Source: an uncultured Lachnospiraceae bacterium (lineage in GTDB: Bacteria; Bacillota; Clostridia; Lachnospirales; Lachnospiraceae). From it: DNA of 56,936 bases. Below are positions 13,150 to 39,085 of this stretch, one piece after another (position 1 is the stretch's first letter; the number at the start of each line of letters is the position of its first letter). The position numbers were made by a program, and so were the translations under genes. The notes beneath the pieces are model-generated. The model worked only from the letters and a program-made list of their open reading frames with translations. It ran no database searches and had not been told where the DNA came from. The DNA lies in NCBI GenBank assembly GCA_902777355.1, contig CACYTU010000026.1, positions 1 through 56,936 on the forward strand, written 5' to 3'.

Positions 13150-13246
13150 TGGCAAACACAATAGGGCAGAGGCGGCCATGCCGCCCTCTGCCCTCCCGCA
13201 GGCTGCCATCCGCCGTCAGGCGATAAATACCTGACGGCAGCCCTGC
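13150..13246 (+). repeat. Dispersed noncoding element R1, copy A
   Basis: Contains the palindromic core GGCGGCCATGCCGCC, flanked by GGGCAGA / TCTGCCC, followed by a GTCAGG..CCTGAC hairpin. Similar elements occur reversed at 19085-19225 and forward at 28755-28898. A short frame reads through it on the minus strand but has no supporting start or homology that I can recognise. Confidence 0.65.
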
Positions 13247-13256
13247 AATAAGAAAA

Positions 13257-13293
13257 ACACCCGGCAGCGGGATAAACTGCCGGGTGTTTTTCA
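13257..13293. terminator. Strong bidirectional terminator
   Basis: Stem ACACCCGGCAG / CTGCCGGGTGT with a 9-nt loop is followed by TTTTT on the plus strand and by TTTTTCTT on the minus strand. It separates the LRR gene's upstream region from the araC-type gene's leader. Confidence 0.8.
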
Positions 13294-14823: not shown

Positions 14824-15813
14824 TCAGTCTGATGGCATAGTCCGGACAGGATTCCAGCAGCGGACCAGATGCTCACGGCCCTCTTCCTGCCCGGTCACAC
14901 TCTCCAGTTCCGGTCTTTTCCTGCAGGCTTCGGCAGCATAGGGACAGCGGTGATAGAAATCACAGCCCCCCTCAGCCGGTTCTCGTCTGGTCTCTTTGAA
15001 TCCGTATTCCGCCAGTTCATCAGCCTGCTCGATTTCCGGAATGGCGGACAGAAGCATGCGGGTATAAGGGTGAAGCGGATCGTTGTAAAGACTTTCCGCG
15101 TCCCCCTGCTCCACGATGCTGCCGCGGTACATGACCGCGATCCTGTCGCAGAGATAATAGACCACATTCAGGTTGTGGGAAATAAAGAGCATGGCAAAGT
15201 CTTTTTTGTCATGGATCTCCTGAAAGAGGTTGAGGATCTGCGCCCCGACGGAAACATCCAGGGCAGAAGTCGCCTCGTCCGCGATCACCAGCTCAGGGTC
15301 GATCATCAGGGCGGCGCCGATACAGACGCGCTGCCTCTGACCGCCTGACAGCTCACGCGGCAGCCTGTCGGCGTAGGAGGCATCCAGTCCCACCAGTTCC
15401 AGCATCTCTATGGCCTTCTTCCTTCGGGATTCCTTTGTACCCATCCCGTGCGCCAGAAGAGGCTCCTCCATAGTGGCGGCGATCGTCCTTCTGGGATTCA
15501 GCGCGCTCAGGGGGTCCTGAAAGACCGCCTGCACACTGGCGGAAAACTCACGGCGGTTTTGGCGGGAATACTCCATCCCCGAGACCTTGATCTCCCCTTC
15601 AAAAGGGATCAGTCCCAGAATTGCTTTACCCAGCGTCGACTTTCCGCATCCGCTCTCTCCCACCAGTCCGAAGATCTCATCCCGGTGAATGGTCAGACTG
15701 ACATCATTGAGCACGCGGGTCGTTTTATTCTTTGAAAAAAACCCTGACCCGCTGTTCCTGTATCGATTGGTGACATGTGAGATCTCCACGATCTCTTCAC
15801 TCTTTTTTCCCAT
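14824..15813 (-). CDS. Oligopeptide/dipeptide ABC importer ATPase (DppF/OppF type)
   Basis: A 329-residue ATPase with Walker A GESGCGKST, signature LSGGQRQR, Walker B ADEATSALD and switch His (ISHNLNVV). The C-terminal oligopeptide/dipeptide extension has a Cys-containing motif (CDFYHRCPYAAEAC) typical of this family, where it may bind an Fe-S cluster. It pairs with the second ATPase upstream to energise import. It is the last gene of the minus-strand operon, separated from the preceding ATPase gene by 164 bp containing hairpins. Confidence 0.92.
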   Translation of the reverse strand: MGKKSEEIVEISHVTNRYRNSGSGFFSKNKTTRVLNDVSLTIHRDEIFGLVGESGCGKSTLGKAILGLIPFEGEIKVSGMEYSRQNRREFSASVQAVFQDPLSALNPRRTIAATMEEPLLAHGMGTKESRRKKAIEMLELVGLDASYADRLPRELSGGQRQRVCIGAALMIDPELVIADEATSALDVSVGAQILNLFQEIHDKKDFAMLFISHNLNVVYYLCDRIAVMYRGSIVEQGDAESLYNDPLHPYTRMLLSAIPEIEQADELAEYGFKETRREPAEGGCDFYHRCPYAAEACRKRPELESVTGQEEGREHLVRCWNPVRTMPSD

Positions 15814-15977: not shown

Positions 15978-16937
15978 TCAATAATGGCACCAGAGAATAT
16001 GTTCCTCCGAGATCTTTTTTCTCGATGGATATTCAGTAAAGCATCTCTTATCAGCTTTGCTGCAGCGCGAGGCAAAAGGACAAGGAGGCTTCTCCTCCGT
16101 GACCGGAGGCACTCTTCCGGGGATGCTGGCCAGCGGGTTCCCTTTCATTCTCCTGGTCGGGATCGAAGCGATCAGGCCCTGTGTGTAGGGATGCTGAGGA
16201 TTTTTCAGGATGTCCTCCGTGCGCCCCTGCTCCACGATCTTGCCGGCGTACATGACCAGCACCCGGCTGCAGATCTTGTTGATGACACCCAGGTCATGGG
16301 AGATCAGGAGGATCGCGGTGCCGGTCTTTTCATTGATACTCTTCAAAAGTTCCAGCACGTGGGCCTGTGTGGTCACATCCAGGGCCGTAGTCGGTTCGTC
16401 CGCGATCAGGAGCTTGGGCTTGGCGATGATGCCCATGGCGATCATGACACGCTGCCGCATGCCGCCCGAGAGTTCATGGGGATACATGCGCATGGTCTTT
16501 ACCGGATCAGGAAGTCCCGCCATCCTGAGCGCTTCAATCGTCTTTTCTTCTATCTCGGCATGGGAATGATGTCCATGCAGCAGAAGAACCTCTCCGACCT
16601 GGGGTCCGATCCTGTAGAGCGGATTCAGACTTGTCATGGGCTCCTGGAAAATCATGGTTATATCATTTCCGTTGATCTGACGGCGTTCCGCCGCCGACAC
16701 TTTGAGCAGATCCCTGCCGTCGAACATCATGGTGCCTTCTGTCACCTTGATATGGTTTTTGAGAAGATCCTGCAGAGCCAGTGCAGTCATGCTCTTGCCG
16801 CAGCCCGACTCTCCGACGATTCCTACGATTTCCCCTTTTCCAACGTTGAAGCTGATGCGGTTGACCACATTATACGCCTCCCCGTTCTCGTAGATCGTCA
16901 CAGTCATGTGCTTCACTTCCAGAATGATTTCATCCAT
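15978..16937 (-). CDS. Oligopeptide/dipeptide ABC importer ATPase (DppD/OppD type)
   Basis: A 319-residue ATPase with Walker A GESGCGKSMTA, signature LSGGMRQRV, Walker B ADEPTTALD and ISHDLGV. The C-terminal Cys motif of the family (CPFASRCSKADKRC) is present. It partners with the downstream ATPase. The start ATG has AGAGG upstream. The gap to the permease gene upstream (16938-17132) holds a 22-bp hairpin repeat. Confidence 0.92.
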   Translation of the reverse strand: MDEIILEVKHMTVTIYENGEAYNVVNRISFNVGKGEIVGIVGESGCGKSMTALALQDLLKNHIKVTEGTMMFDGRDLLKVSAAERRQINGNDITMIFQEPMTSLNPLYRIGPQVGEVLLLHGHHSHAEIEEKTIEALRMAGLPDPVKTMRMYPHELSGGMRQRVMIAMGIIAKPKLLIADEPTTALDVTTQAHVLELLKSINEKTGTAILLISHDLGVINKICSRVLVMYAGKIVEQGRTEDILKNPQHPYTQGLIASIPTRRMKGNPLASIPGRVPPVTEEKPPCPFASRCSKADKRCFTEYPSRKKISEEHILWCHY

Positions 16938-17132: not shown

Positions 17133-18053
17133 TCAGCTCAGATATTTCTTGCGGATCCCCTCGCCGATACAGTTGAGGCCGACAATGGTCAGGACGATCA
17201 TCATGCCGGGCGCTATGGCCGCCCAGGGCGTCGAGAAGATAATGTCCTGTGCCTCCTTGAGCATGCGGCCCCAGCTGGGGATGGGGGGCTGGATGCCCAG
17301 TCCCAGGTAGCTCATACTGGACTCCGCCAGGATCGCGTTTGAAAGACCGATGACGATCGAAGAGAGCAGAAGGGGATAGATATTGGGCAGTATATGGACA
17401 AAAAGTATCCGCAGATCCGAGTCTCCAAACACCTTATTGCTAAGGACAAACTCCGCATTTTTGTACTGCAGGGTGCCCGTCCGCACGATTCGCGTAAAAC
17501 TGGGTATGAACATGATCACCAGAGCGGGAATAATAGTGAGTTTGCCGTAATTGAGAATACTGACCATAACCAGGGCGATCAGGATACTGGGGAAAGAGTT
17601 GATGGCGTCGATCACGCGCATGACGATCTCGTCCAGCAAGCCGCCGACATAACCGCATACAAGTCCGAGGATTATACTGACGGCCGTCGCCAGAAGGACC
17701 GTGGAGCCGGATACCAGCAGTGTGAACCGGGCTCCCACCATGGCGCGGCTGAAAATGTCCCGGCCGTAATTGTCCGTCCCGAAAAAGTGCTGCAGGGACG
17801 GTGCCTGTGACCGGATCGTTGTATCCATCTCATAGACATCATGAGGCGTATAAAAAATACTCAGAAGCCCCAGAAAGAGGACGATGCCCACAAGCACAAA
17901 ACCGATCCGGAGTTCCGCATCGCCCGTCACCCAGGGACTGATCGTCGAATCTTTCATCCTTCGGTTCTGTCTTTCCGCCCGCGCTTTGTCCGCGGCATTG
18001 GGCTGGCGCCCCCATTTCATTCCTGCTGCGTTGGTGTTCACTGCTTTAGCCAT
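17133..18053 (-). CDS. Oligopeptide/dipeptide ABC importer permease (DppC/OppC type)
   Basis: A 306-residue inner-membrane permease. The N-terminal OppC-type segment is followed by a first helix (FVLVGIVLFLGLLSI) and the periplasmic-side motif FGTDNYGRDIFSR typical of this family. Five further helices follow, and the C-terminal part has the ATPase-coupling region. It forms the channel together with the permease gene 15 bp upstream. The start has GGAGGAGAG. Confidence 0.92.
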   Translation of the reverse strand: MAKAVNTNAAGMKWGRQPNAADKARAERQNRRMKDSTISPWVTGDAELRIGFVLVGIVLFLGLLSIFYTPHDVYEMDTTIRSQAPSLQHFFGTDNYGRDIFSRAMVGARFTLLVSGSTVLLATAVSIILGLVCGYVGGLLDEIVMRVIDAINSFPSILIALVMVSILNYGKLTIIPALVIMFIPSFTRIVRTGTLQYKNAEFVLSNKVFGDSDLRILFVHILPNIYPLLLSSIVIGLSNAILAESSMSYLGLGIQPPIPSWGRMLKEAQDIIFSTPWAAIAPGMMIVLTIVGLNCIGEGIRKKYLS

Positions 18054-18068: not shown

Positions 18069-19013
18069 TCATCGCGCGATCCGGATACGGGGATCCAGAA
18101 TCTGGATCAGGATATCCACGATAAAGTTGACAACCAGGATCAGGATCGCGATGTACATAACCAGTGTCTGTACGGTAGGATAGTCTCTTGCCGAGACAGA
18201 AGCGATCAGAAGCCGTCCGATCCCAGGGATTCCGAAAACCTGCTCAACCACAATCGAACCGGAGAAGATTCCGCTGACGATCATGCCGATCAGGGGGACC
18301 ACGGAGACAATGGCATTTTTAAGCACATGCACATAGAGAATGCGGTTTTTTGTGCTGCCCTTGCTGCGGGCTGTCCGCACATAATCCGACCGCGCCTCGT
18401 CGATGACGGCGGTACGGATATATTTAGACAGGATGCAGATCTGGGGAATGGCGATCGCGATCGCCGGCCAGATCATGAACTTAAAAAATTTGGCGGGATC
18501 TCTGGAAAATGAGACAAATTTTCCCGGATTGAACCAGTGCAGTGATAAGCCGAAAATCCAAATCAGCAGAATGCTGAGAAAGAATCCCGGAAAAGAGATC
18601 CCGAGTATATTGAGGATATTCAGGATCTGTTCCGAGAGGACATGTTTTCGTCCGGCCGTAAAGACGCCCAGGAATATTCCAAATATAATGACCAGGGTCA
18701 TGGCCATGGCTCCCAGTGTCAGTGTCACGGAGAGCTTTCCTTTCAGGAGTTTGGCCACCGGTTTGCGGTACTGGATCGATTTCCCGAAATCCCCGTGCAG
18801 GGATCCGCTGATCCATTCCACATACTGTTCCTGCAGCGGACGGTTCAGACCCAGTTCCTCACGCAGGTTTTCCAGCTGCTCCTGGGACGCGCTGGTACCC
18901 AGAATCATGGCAGCGGGATCACCCGGCACAATATGAAACAGCCAGAATGTAACCATGGATATGATGAACAGCGTCAGCACCATGATCCCGAGTTTTCTGA
19001 TGAAATACCGCAT
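18069..19013 (-). CDS. Oligopeptide/dipeptide ABC importer permease (DppB/OppB type)
   Basis: A 314-residue permease opening MRYFIRKLGIMVLTLFIISM, followed by the family motif VPGDPA and six predicted helices ending near ILILVVNFIVDILIQILDPR. First permease after the binding-protein gene, separated from it by a strong hairpin and a dispersed repeat. AGGAG lies 6 nt before the start. Confidence 0.93.
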   Translation of the reverse strand: MRYFIRKLGIMVLTLFIISMVTFWLFHIVPGDPAAMILGTSASQEQLENLREELGLNRPLQEQYVEWISGSLHGDFGKSIQYRKPVAKLLKGKLSVTLTLGAMAMTLVIIFGIFLGVFTAGRKHVLSEQILNILNILGISFPGFFLSILLIWIFGLSLHWFNPGKFVSFSRDPAKFFKFMIWPAIAIAIPQICILSKYIRTAVIDEARSDYVRTARSKGSTKNRILYVHVLKNAIVSVVPLIGMIVSGIFSGSIVVEQVFGIPGIGRLLIASVSARDYPTVQTLVMYIAILILVVNFIVDILIQILDPRIRIAR

Positions 19014-19044: not shown

Positions 19045-19078
19045 ACCGGCCGGGCAGGCGGGATGCCTCCCGGCCGGG
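19045..19078. terminator. Intercistronic hairpin after the binding-protein gene
   Basis: A 9-bp stem CCGGCCGGG / CCCGGCCGG with a 14-nt loop lies between the binding-protein gene and the first permease gene. The T-run is on the plus strand only; in the operon's own direction the stem lacks a clean U-tract. I infer partial attenuation or mRNA stabilisation, common in importers that need excess binding protein. Confidence 0.55.
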
Positions 19079-19084
19079 TTTTTG

Positions 19085-19225
19085 CTTTAGCGCAGGGCCG
19101 CCGTAAGGTTATCTTTCACCTGACGGCGAACGGCTGCCCGCGTGAGGGCAGAGGACTGCGCGGCCGTCTCTACCCTGTTTGACACAGCCTGTGTATTGTC
19201 TTGTTCCGCCCGGAGGCGGACAGGC
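19085..19225 (-). repeat. Dispersed noncoding element R1, copy B (reverse)
   Basis: Read on the minus strand it runs GGCGGAACAAGACAATACAC, then CAGGCTGTGTCA, a GACGGCCGCGC core, CTCTGCCCTC, and a final CCGTCAGG..TTACGG hairpin. The order and spacing match copy A (13150-13246), and its first part matches copies C and D. It begins immediately after the binding-protein stop codon. Confidence 0.6.
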
Positions 19226-20863
19226 TTATTGTTCCGGATATGTGACAGAATATGTCTTTCCGCCGGCGGAGAACTGGTCGATTTCGTTGAATCCGTTGAT
19301 TCCGGAAACAATCGATTTCTCCAGAGAATAGACCACATCGTCCATAGTAAGTTCATTTCCGTTGTGGAATTTTATGCCCTCACGCAGTGTGAAAGTATAG
19401 GTCTGAAGGTCATCGGAAACCTCGCATTTCTCAGCGATGGCAGGACTGAAGCTGCCGTCGGTATCTGTCCTCATCAGGCCTTCATAAATATTAAAGAAGA
19501 TACTTCTCGCGTCTGCGGTCTGTGTGGTAAAGGGATCAAAACCGGGAGCCTCTGTGGAAACGCCCTTGATAAAGTCTCCGCCTTTTTTCATTTTTCCGTC
19601 ATCCCCTACGGCATACAGAGCGGAATAATCATCCACATACAGGGGATAAGCCTTGAATCCGGCAAAGGCGGGGCTGTTGATCACGACGGAATCGATGTCC
19701 TGAATATAGACGCTGGCGCACTCATCGCTGATGATCTTCTGGGCTTCCTTGAAGAGTTTGACCTGCTCGGCATCATCTGTTTCGAGGAGGGCCTTGCCGT
19801 AAGTCTCATCAAAAGCGTCGGAGTGGAAGTTTACAAAGTTGTCGGAAGCAGTGGAGACATATCTGTTCAGGAAAGAAGTCGGGTAGGCGATGGGGCCGTC
19901 AACCGCGACGATGGTCGCCTCGAATTCGCTCTCCTTATATACGCGGTTCAGCCATGTATTCCAGTCGACAGACTCGATTTCCACATTGATGCCCGCCTTT
20001 GCAAGCTGGTTGGCAATGACCTGACCCGTGTCCACATGCACCTGGTAGTTGGAAGGAACACGAATCTTGAAGGTCAGGTTCTCCTGTCCAGCCTCTTTGA
20101 GCAGTTCCTTTGCCTTTTCAACATTTACATCATAGACATCTGTCAGTTCATCGTTGAAATATTTTTCCAGTCCGGGAATGACCGGTGTGCCTGCCTTGGT
20201 ACCCAGCCCGTAGCTGACCTTGTCAATGATCTCCTCCGAGTCTACCGCATAGGCAACAGCCTGGCGGACGCGCACATCCTTGAAGGGCTCAAACTCATTG
20301 TTGAGGGCCAGAAGCTGGACCGCGTTGGAGTGGCGTAAGTTCCGGACGTAATCCGTGCCTTCCAGTTCCTTCCAGCCGCCCGCGTTGGAATTGAAGCCGT
20401 CGATCGCGCCTGACAGATAGTTGGTCGCGAGGGAAGATGTATTCTCAAAGTACTTGAGTGTGACGCTGTCCAGATTCGCCGGCTCTCCCCAGTAATCCTC
20501 GTTGCGTGTCAGCAGGGTGTAATCCTGCTCTACAAACTCGCTCATCACAAAAGGGCCGGTTCCGATCGGCTCCGAAGCCAGATCCTCCGCGTCAGCGGGA
20601 ACGATCGGGCTTGTGACAACTGCGGGGAAGCCGCTGTCGGGCTTGCTGAGATGGACGACCAGCGTTCTCTCATCCTGAGGAGCGTCTGCGGAGTCCTCAG
20701 CCTCGACGACGGGCCTGGGTTCCTCTTCTTCAGTCTGCTCCGTCTCTGCAGCTGTGTCTGCAGAAGCCGCGGAATCCTTGCCTGCGGAACCGCCGCCGCA
20801 GCCCGCGATCAGTGAAGCGGTCATCACCGTTCCCAGAATCAATGCCAGCAATCTCTTTTTCAT
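19226..20863 (-). CDS. Peptide-type ABC substrate-binding lipoprotein with permuted domain order
   Basis: A 545-residue lipoprotein starting at the ATG at 20863 (AAAGGGAG leader). Signal peptide and lipobox LIAGC give Cys22; an acidic linker follows. The family-5 segments then appear out of order. Residues about 64-425 carry motifs normally found in the middle and C-terminal parts (IGTGPFVMSEF, RNEDYWGEP, FKDVRVRQAVAYAVDSEEII, EKAKELLKEAG). Residues about 428-545 carry those that normally open the mature protein (GGDFIKG, FNIYEGLMRTDTDG, YTFTLREGIKFHNGNELTMDDVVYS). The total length is normal, so nothing seems lost. It heads the importer operon and should deliver peptides or a similar ligand. 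Confidence 0.9.
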   Translation of the reverse strand: MKKRLLALILGTVMTASLIAGCGGGSAGKDSAASADTAAETEQTEEEEPRPVVEAEDSADAPQDERTLVVHLSKPDSGFPAVVTSPIVPADAEDLASEPIGTGPFVMSEFVEQDYTLLTRNEDYWGEPANLDSVTLKYFENTSSLATNYLSGAIDGFNSNAGGWKELEGTDYVRNLRHSNAVQLLALNNEFEPFKDVRVRQAVAYAVDSEEIIDKVSYGLGTKAGTPVIPGLEKYFNDELTDVYDVNVEKAKELLKEAGQENLTFKIRVPSNYQVHVDTGQVIANQLAKAGINVEIESVDWNTWLNRVYKESEFEATIVAVDGPIAYPTSFLNRYVSTASDNFVNFHSDAFDETYGKALLETDDAEQVKLFKEAQKIISDECASVYIQDIDSVVINSPAFAGFKAYPLYVDDYSALYAVGDDGKMKKGGDFIKGVSTEAPGFDPFTTQTADARSIFFNIYEGLMRTDTDGSFSPAIAEKCEVSDDLQTYTFTLREGIKFHNGNELTMDDVVYSLEKSIVSGINGFNEIDQFSAGGKTYSVTYPEQ

Positions 20864-23420: not shown

Positions 23421-24905
23421 TTACGGAATCCTGATATTTCCGTCCGAATCGATTTCCGTCCCAAAAGATATATCTCTCATATGCTGAAGGATCAGTTCCT
23501 TCTCCTGCCCCTCCTCAGGGCCGGATGTAAAAAGATCCCTCTGGGTACAGGGAATAAATCTCAGACCTGTCAGCCTTGGTTTCTCATGGGGATCAGCAGG
23601 GAGTCTGAGTGTCAGCTCTGCCATACCGGTCATCAGGTCTTCGCCGTTAAACCAGAAATTCCCCAGGCTGTAAAAAACCGGCACCCCGTCGATAATACTA
23701 ATACCCTGAAGAATGTGAGGGTGGGTCCCTATGACAGCATCTGCACCCGAAGCCACAAGTTCACGTGCCATGGCCTCCTGCTCCTCTGTATAATACTCCA
23801 GGTATTCATAGCCCCAGTGGACACTGGCGATCACAAAATCCGCCTGCTGAGCCGCTTTCCTCACCGCTTCATAAAAAGCTTCGGGGTCATAGCAGCCCAG
23901 AATCCCGGGGGAATCATCCGTGGCAGGACTGGTCCAGATCACATCCTCGTGCTCCTCTGCGCAGGATGCCGCCACATAGGCGATCTTGTGTCCGTTGATC
24001 TCATAAATGACAGGGGACGAAGCCTCCTCCAGATTTCTGCCGGCTCCGACCCGCCTGATTCCTGCCTTATCCAGTGTATCCAGCGTATCGACCAGGGACT
24101 CCTCCCCATAATCTTTTATATGATTATTGGCGGCAAGGACAATGTCCACACCCAGCGTTTTCAGGTTTTTCACCCGTTTCGGATCCGCCCGGAATGTATA
24201 GGTCTTTTCCTGAGGTTTCCCGCGGCGGCTGTAGGTATATTCATTATTCAACATGAACAGGTCGAAATCCCTCATCTCCTTCAAAAGTGCCGGGGAAAAA
24301 CAATCCCTGATCCCGTTTTTCTGCCGGTCCATGAAAACAGTGGTCTCCCAGTCCTCGGACAGATTCAGATCCCCTGCAAAGCCCAGGCGGATCTGGCGGT
24401 CCTGTGCCTTCTCTTCAGCGTCACTGGGTTTTTTCTTCTTTCCCTCTTCTTTTTCACCGCCCGCTGCGGTCTTTTTCTTTTTTCCTTCTTCCTTCTCACC
24501 GCCCGCTGCGGTTTTTTTCTTCTTTCCCTCTTCCTGCTCACCGCCTGCCGCGGTGTCTTCTTTTTTTTCAGAGTCCCCGGACTCTTTTTCTCCTGTGAAG
24601 CCCATCTCCTTCCGGTCTTCCTCAGGCCAGTCCACCTGATCGGTCAAAAGGCCTCCGCCGGAATCTTTTGCGGCATTTTCCGACCCTTCTCCAAACTGCA
24701 GTCCTGTCGTCCCTTTCCCGTTTTTGTCTGCTGAGTCTTCCCCTGCTCTGTTTTCCACAGACTGTGCAGTTTTGGAAGCGTGACCGGGCACCGGAGCCTG
24801 ATCCCCGTTTTTTTCCGGAGTGTTCCCGGCGGAACATCCATATAAAAACATGACTCCCATAAAAAACACCGTCAACACTACCCTTTTTATATTCCGTCTT
24901 TTCAT
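23421..24905 (-). CDS. CapA-family metallophosphatase-like lipoprotein
   Basis: A 494-residue secreted lipoprotein: signal peptide with lipobox LYGC, then about 130 residues of low-complexity linker, then a CapA/PGA_cap domain. Domain motifs are GFAGDLNLSED, AANNHIKDYGEESLVDTLD, SVHWGYEYLEYYTEEQ, GTHPHILQGI and YSLGNFWFN. The family includes the poly-gamma-glutamate protein PgsA/CapA, but other pgs genes are absent here, so the substrate is unknown. The linker has three copies of a 14-residue K/E/G repeat (KKKKTAAGGEKEEG type) encoded at 42-bp spacing near 24456-24545. Start has GGAGAG. Confidence 0.88.
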   Translation of the reverse strand: MKRRNIKRVVLTVFFMGVMFLYGCSAGNTPEKNGDQAPVPGHASKTAQSVENRAGEDSADKNGKGTTGLQFGEGSENAAKDSGGGLLTDQVDWPEEDRKEMGFTGEKESGDSEKKEDTAAGGEQEEGKKKKTAAGGEKEEGKKKKTAAGGEKEEGKKKKPSDAEEKAQDRQIRLGFAGDLNLSEDWETTVFMDRQKNGIRDCFSPALLKEMRDFDLFMLNNEYTYSRRGKPQEKTYTFRADPKRVKNLKTLGVDIVLAANNHIKDYGEESLVDTLDTLDKAGIRRVGAGRNLEEASSPVIYEINGHKIAYVAASCAEEHEDVIWTSPATDDSPGILGCYDPEAFYEAVRKAAQQADFVIASVHWGYEYLEYYTEEQEAMARELVASGADAVIGTHPHILQGISIIDGVPVFYSLGNFWFNGEDLMTGMAELTLRLPADPHEKPRLTGLRFIPCTQRDLFTSGPEEGQEKELILQHMRDISFGTEIDSDGNIRIP

Positions 24906-38220: not shown

Positions 38221-38895
38221 TCACAGGTTCTCGAAATGTTTCATAAGTTCCACGCCGGCGCTGGTTCCAAGTCTCTCGGCACCCGCCTCCACCATTGCCA
38301 TGGCGGTATCAAAATCCCTGATTCCGCCCGCCGCCTTGACTTTCACTGCGTCGCCGACGACGGATTTCATCAGACGTACGTCTTCAACAGTTGCTCCTCC
38401 TGTGCCGAAGCCGGTGGAGGTCTTGATAAAGTCAGGTCTGACTTTCAGGGCAATCTCCGCTGCCGTCCGCTTTTCCTCATCCGTCAGGTAGCAGTTTTCA
38501 AAAATGACCTTGCAGATAACTCCCTCAGCCCTGCATGCCTTCGTGATTTCCCTCATCTCCCGCTCGATCAGGTCCGTATTGCCGTTTTTCAATTCCGCCA
38601 CATTGAGGACATAATCAATCTCATGAGCCCCCTTGCGGATGGCGTCCATAGTCTCAAAAACCTTGCTCTCGACTGTCATCTGTCCCAGGGGAAAGCCTAC
38701 AGTAGACCCGATATGAACATTGCTCCCGGCCAGATACTTTGCGCACCTTTCAATCTGCGCGCCATTGATGGCAACTGCCTTAAAGCTGTACCTGCGCGCT
38801 TCCTCACAGAGCTTTGCAATCGCCGCGTCGTCAGCATAGGCTTTCAGATTTGTGTGGTCGATCATTCCCGCCAGCTGTTCCTTTGTCAGATTCAT
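38221..38895 (-). CDS. deoC: Deoxyribose-phosphate aldolase
   Basis: A 224-residue class I aldolase that splits 2-deoxyribose-5-phosphate into acetaldehyde and glyceraldehyde-3-phosphate. The Schiff-base Lys lies in VRPDFIKTSTGFGTGGATV, and the second catalytic Lys in VKVKAAGGIRDF. Length is normal. GGAGGGAAC precedes the start. It lies downstream of the rRNA methyltransferase, separated by a 17-bp repeat array. No other deoxynucleoside salvage genes are adjacent. Confidence 0.96.
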   Translation of the reverse strand: MNLTKEQLAGMIDHTNLKAYADDAAIAKLCEEARRYSFKAVAINGAQIERCAKYLAGSNVHIGSTVGFPLGQMTVESKVFETMDAIRKGAHEIDYVLNVAELKNGNTDLIEREMREITKACRAEGVICKVIFENCYLTDEEKRTAAEIALKVRPDFIKTSTGFGTGGATVEDVRLMKSVVGDAVKVKAAGGIRDFDTAMAMVEAGAERLGTSAGVELMKHFENL

Positions 38896-38926
38896 GTTCC
38901 CTCCATTTTCTCAGATCTTCCTTTTC

Positions 38927-39085
38927 CTCAGGATATCTTTCTCCTCAGGATATCTTTCTCCTCAGGGTATCTTTCTCCTCAGGATATCTTTCTCCTCAGG
39001 GTATCTTTCTCCTCAGGGTATCTTTCTCCTCAGGGTATCTTTTTTCCTCAGGGTATCTTTTCTCCTCAGGGTATCTTTTTACTCA
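38927..39085. repeat. 17-bp tandem repeat in phase with a stop codon
   Basis: About nine copies of a 17-bp (sometimes 18-bp) unit of the form CTCCTCAGGGTATCTTT. The methyltransferase stop codon (complement TCA at 39083-39085) falls exactly 17 bp from the TCA of the neighbouring unit (39066-39068). The array fills nearly all of the gap to deoC. Confidence 0.9.

Follow-up and report, generated by a model that had tools for sequence, protein, structure and literature searches.

The 56,936-nt contig CACYTU010000026.1 of an uncultured Lachnospiraceae bacterium (assembly GCA_902777355.1), referred to here in its full length as the window, encodes a family-5 (SBP_bac_5, cluster C) substrate-binding lipoprotein, P0001, which is very probably a genuine natural circular permutant. 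Natural circular permutation is also likely to be a recurrent and so far unreported phenomenon among family-5 (cluster C) lipoproteins. It would comprise at least five or six events with three cut sites, each moving the lipid anchor elsewhere on the flytrap, and ranging from the single species of the window to an old phylum-wide family.

P0001 is encoded in a single stop-free frame (19226-20863, minus strand; 545 amino acids). Signal peptide and linker are followed by the middle and C-terminal segments (M-C, residues ~49-419) and then by the N-terminal segment (N, residues 420-542), each present once according to translation, Pfam and phmmer. The N-M-C order, which is customary for SBP_bac_5 and lies outside the Pfam definition of the family, is absent; the protein has M-C-N instead. 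The Pfam model SBP_bac_5 (PF00496) scores 276.3 bits (curated cut-off 32.4), split over two stretches: in the genome scan, profile positions 70-366 matched at 19841-20680 and positions 2-54 at 19292-19450, such that the start of the profile is placed last. In the phmmer comparison with solved structures, P0001 residues 91-388 correspond to residues 173-477 of 3m8u, and residues 431-517 to 3m8u residues 5-99. These matches, together with the relatives described below, bear out the original prediction of one continuous 545-residue frame in rotated family-5 order. Its rotated N segment was likewise recovered, but not with the predicted boundary at 19582, as the C|N join lies slightly upstream of it, at residues 419/420 (about 19606/19607 in the window).

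All ten close relatives aligned by blastn (L008-L017) have the usual order, the segment that comes last in P0001 being located upstream there. Compared with eight canonical relatives, P0001 shows 77-88% identity in its M-C part to their C-terminal part (86-88% for the nearest kin) and, in the working alignment, 66-77% identity over the full N fragment to their N-terminal part. In each of the eight nearest relatives, a single canonical protein thus matches both pieces at 66-88% identity, which is beyond chance. The locus is syntenic in the three genomes compared: around the binding protein gene lie the TetR-like and 493-aa genes as well as the permeases, the ATPases and the AraC-like gene known from the window.

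In canonical kin, the hairpin that is cut in P0001 reads GKTYTV, followed by about 15-20 variable, charged residues and then by PVVTAADSADAP. The first half of this hairpin closes P0001 (GKTYSVTYPEQ), and the second half (TEEEEPRPVVEAEDSADAP) comes right after the signal-peptide linker. In the canonical model, the strands of this variable domain II hairpin span residues 165-175 and 181-191, and the cut falls between them, at the tip. The old C-terminus, SALYAV, is joined directly to GDDGKMKKGGDF, the end of which is similar to the mature start of the kin (GQMVEGGDF). Thus, as in natural permutants, the new termini lie in a surface loop and the old ones are joined by a short linker. Both internal joints are in frame and every conserved block is retained. 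The view that nothing obvious is missing therefore holds for the conserved residues; the variable hairpin loop has probably lost about a dozen residues, judging from the alignment with the kin.

AlphaFold2 predicted that the rotated chain folds well (predicted local distance difference test score, pLDDT, 86.6; predicted template modelling score, pTM, 0.83), and the model has the two-lobed family-5 fold. Its residues 47-421 align to residues 97-507 of DppA (1dpe), reaching the true C-terminus of the latter. Foldseek and VIA-align cover only this part of the model, because these aligners are sequential and the position of the N segment is outside their reach. The domain names and the hinge position used here follow OppA and DppA.

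Circular permutation is supported as the best reading of this segment order, because each conserved segment occurs once, rotated, within a single frame and every break falls in a variable linker, and because the rotated chain is predicted to fold and same-order relatives exist in other family-5 branches (see below). The single rotated segments and the predicted fold also support the earlier proposal of a true permutation as opposed to a truncation.

Some points weigh against this reading. The case for P0001 rests on one draft genome (150 contigs, 84% complete, 5% contaminated), and the placement of the N segment in the fold rests on pTM and pLDDT, the structure search spanning residues 47-421 only. 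Furthermore, P0001 stands alone with its order among 62 genomes of its genus and 397 of the family sample. In the genus, 55 of the 62 genomes match at E <= 1e-60, and only P0001's own genome matches residues 1-545 unbroken; in the family sample, 113 of 397 match at the same threshold and, among the matches listed, none but that of the window extends beyond residue 434. Finally, dN/dS (the ratio of nonsynonymous to synonymous substitutions, NG86 method) amounts to 0.06-0.13 for M-C and 0.07-0.15 for N in comparisons of P0001 with the eight canonical relatives, one of the 16 values being undefined through saturation, and to about 0.05-0.18 between canonical pairs. As dS is near or above 1, these values mostly reflect shared history and can neither date the permutation nor test selection after it.

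Two matches were considered as candidates for extending past the old C-terminus, each with two stops. For the first (45-454 in G052), the N segment is found upstream, as usual, at locus L010; for the second (75-465 in G058), locus L030 has no N-segment match and the contig ends there.

That the rearrangement is real, but the gene decaying and non-functional, appears rather unlikely. It would fit the absence of a same-order sibling in the genus and family samples, and the event is perhaps too young for visible decay. On the other hand, 545 codons are free of stops and frameshifts, the predicted fold is good, the operon is intact, and dN/dS resembles that of the canonical relatives, though this is mostly inherited history. 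We regard it as quite unlikely that an assembly or binning artefact, i.e. a contig misjoined inside a gene of usual order, has produced P0001. The fragmented draft with some contamination and the uniqueness of the order among the 62 genus genomes would be in line with such an artefact, yet it needs three new joins within 1.6 kb, the internal two in frame and all in variable linkers, with the conserved blocks present once. Moreover, both flanks are syntenic with three relatives, and the own-genome search revealed no canonical copy (at 84% completeness). Long repeats in the gene that could explain a misjoin were not seen among the own-genome matches, which involved no systematic in-gene repeat search. 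A domain fusion or duplication, with the last segment as an extra domain and a normal N segment elsewhere in the protein, found no supporting point and has practically no probability left: signal peptide and linker take up residues 1-48, the single match of the N part is at the end, and the own-genome search detected no second copy of the M-C or N part at the window locus.

If P0001 is a circular permutant, a linker of roughly ten residues would have connected the two former termini, which both belong to domain I, and the new ones would have opened at the tip of the variable domain II hairpin. Lipid anchor and acidic linker would have stayed at the front of the gene, so that the tether is now on domain II, formerly on domain I. 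According to the model, the Venus-flytrap fold and the binding cleft are retained; with both kept, P0001 most likely still serves the DppBCDF-type importer encoded downstream of it by delivering a peptide-like ligand. The permutation would be recent, postdating the split from canonical relatives up to 88% identical. The simplest route would be an internal duplication of the mature region followed by loss of two parts, and an origin via tandem duplication and loss, as originally suggested, is plausible. No duplication intermediate was seen, and the intergenic stretches of nine relatives, which carry other sequence, contained no N-segment remnant.

Homologues with the order of P0001 occur in other family-5 branches. 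Among 114 matching loci (duplicates included), 107 were canonical, three contained a single part and four were M-C-N: the window (twice), L071 and L075. L071, from a Thermoanaerobacterales metagenome-assembled genome (MAG; PKRH01000021.1), and L075, from a Chloroflexi MAG, each comprise a single frame (560 and 553 aa, respectively) just upstream of a DppB-like permease. The reading frames of PKRH01000021.1 are very G+C-rich in all frames, and its Thermoanaerobacterales label may be wrong. In the phylum of L075's genome, 54 of 400 genomes match at E <= 1e-70; 56 of 57 among the matches listed cross the C|N joint and one (G290) ends before it. All 34 frames read, including L071 and L075, have the M-C-N order, and the permuted proteins of this phylum are a conserved family. 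In the phylum of L071's genome, 16 of 296 genomes match, four of them at full permuted length; the others end at the joint.

Further cases were found in other collections. A plasmid search returned 370 records, one of which covered at least 80% of P0002: a Subdoligranulum variabile plasmid record (OY725879.1) with an OppA-like protein of 596 aa, whose cut lies in the same region of domain II. In the family of its nearest kin, 21 of 32 genomes match at E <= 1e-100 (best 70% identical), none of the matches listed crossing the joint. In 391 Clostridia genomes, three of the matches listed cross the joint without stops (G1184, G925 and G1194). In G1184 and G925, the start is at the first domain III helix and the end at the strand preceding that helix, which amounts to a hinge cut; G1194 is cut within domain III. 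Among 118 genomes of the order, the full-length hinge cut is common to G1184, G1639, G1561, G925 and the distant G1602 (32-34% identical). The G1184 gene is located on a 3.12 Mb contig, and members of the phylum-wide family (G271, G400) on contigs of 3.3 and 4.0 Mb; the phenomenon is therefore no assembly fault.

In a tree of 48 proteins, 14 permuted (rotated for alignment) and 34 canonical with their order checked, six changes of the permuted state are needed. All six are forced by branches with strong support, and across 200 bootstrap trees the number stays at 6-6 (5-95% range). Most simply, the permuted state was gained six times: in the window, in the phylum-wide family together with L071, in Subdoligranulum, in the G1184 group, in G1194 and in G1602, the last being a long branch of uncertain place; the six changes could include losses. 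The three cut sites seen, i.e. domain II hairpin, domain I/III hinge and inside domain III, imply at least three events whatever the tree. The prediction of a rare natural permutation thus stands as to its natural character and needs mending as to rarity, since the event recurred in family 5.

Two unusual proteins were seen alongside. A 774-aa frame (L138, 1492-3813; G151:C11) carries an upstream stretch, presumably resembling a branched-chain amino-acid binding protein, followed by a permuted family-5 protein, a possible fusion of two binder types. In P0001's own genome, a 1280-aa protein (L226, 1268-5107, minus strand; G000:C8) contains a long Ala/Thr-rich repeat (TAQETAAAQ...) that breaks its family-5 domain close to the hinge, and it has additional sequence at the C-terminus.

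A natural permutant is known from Treponema pallidum. TpMglB-2 (Tp0684) is a 'cluster Bc' glucose-binding lipoprotein whose first N-lobe strands are relocated to the C-terminal end; it is reported to bind ligand and close normally, its authors suggest a tie to membrane tethering, and homologues occur in treponemes and Gram-positives (PMC4990184). Both proteins are natural circularly permuted substrate-binding lipoproteins of ATP-binding cassette (ABC) importers. TpMglB-2 differs as a type I/cluster B sugar binder, belongs to the class of about 400 aa and has a fourth crossing of the hinge, whereas Pfam places P0001 in family 5. P0001 resembles the canonical DppA (1dpe, 1dpp), OppA (1ola) and GbpA (3m8u) in sequence, in the fold of residues 47-421 and in operon setting; in these, the order is N-M-C and domain I carries the anchor or N terminus. 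Biosensor work has also produced engineered permutants of periplasmic binding proteins (for example PMC6335823); they share the rotated termini in a two-lobed binder, but are man-made and did not pass natural selection. A permuted binder is known for cluster B, and for family 5, which is among the commonest binder families, searches of open-licence literature revealed none.

P0001 is both rare and young as a permutant, and canonical sisters up to 88% identical occupy the same locus; natural proteins can thus be compared to test what permutation alone does to folding, binding and docking. Repeated events with different cut sites also allow asking if relocation of the lipid anchor is adaptive, as suggested for TpMglB-2 (PMC4990184). 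Domain databases split permuted proteins into two stretches, and such proteins therefore pass unnoticed.

The features of the locus are compiled in the table. P0001 is the first gene of a Dpp-like operon with DppBCDF-like permeases and ATPases; domain matches confirm that it heads an intact importer operon. We take residues 1-22 to include a lipobox.

Features of the P0001 locus (window positions)
Feature	Position	Strand	Basis
Lipoprotein signal peptide to lipobox cysteine, residues 1-22 (MKKRLL...LIAGC)	20798..20863	-	translation; signal peptides of canonical relatives near-identical
Flexible acidic linker (residues 23-48), with the first new junction close to its end	20720..20797	-	translation; pLDDT <50 for 1-46
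M + C segments, residues 49-419: domain II second half, domain III, domain I end	19607..20719	-	relatives, model
C-to-N fusion joint, ~residues 413-426 (SALYAV/GDDGKMKK)	19586..19627	-	relatives; pLDDT block means 79-91 nearby
N-terminal segment in last place, residues 420-542	19238..19606	-	identity to relatives' N part; phmmer
New C-terminal end PEQ + stop codon; third junction	19226..19237	-	translation
Dispersed palindromic repeat directly 3' of the P0001 stop, outside the protein	19046..19222	-	genome matches; alignment of nine other copies
DppB-like permease	18069..19013	-	BPD_transp_1 + its N-terminal family
DppC-like permease	17133..18053	-	BPD_transp_1
DppD-like ATPase	15978..16937	-	ABC_tran + oligo_HPY
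DppF-like ATPase	14824..15813	-	ABC_tran + oligo_HPY

The dispersed repeat behind the stop codon had been proposed as a possible mark of the rearrangement. It is a real, intergenic repeat (core AGGGCAGAGGCGGC...GCCGCCCTCTGCCCT); the stretch 19014-19230 matches 25 places in its own genome, itself counted, and one copy lies at 13160-13272 of the window. We rejected it as such a mark: being a genome-wide palindromic element, it provides no evidence on the mechanism of rearrangement, and its position beside P0001 is probably incidental.

An Rfam scan of the window gave no match. Elsewhere in the window, 23421-24905 (minus strand) encodes a protein with tandem EEGKKKKTAAGGEK-type repeats upstream of a further domain, which we take to be CapA-type. 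Short tandem DNA repeats (plus-strand frame: SSGYLSPQGIFLLR) are located at about 38880-39080, between convergent or neighbouring genes.
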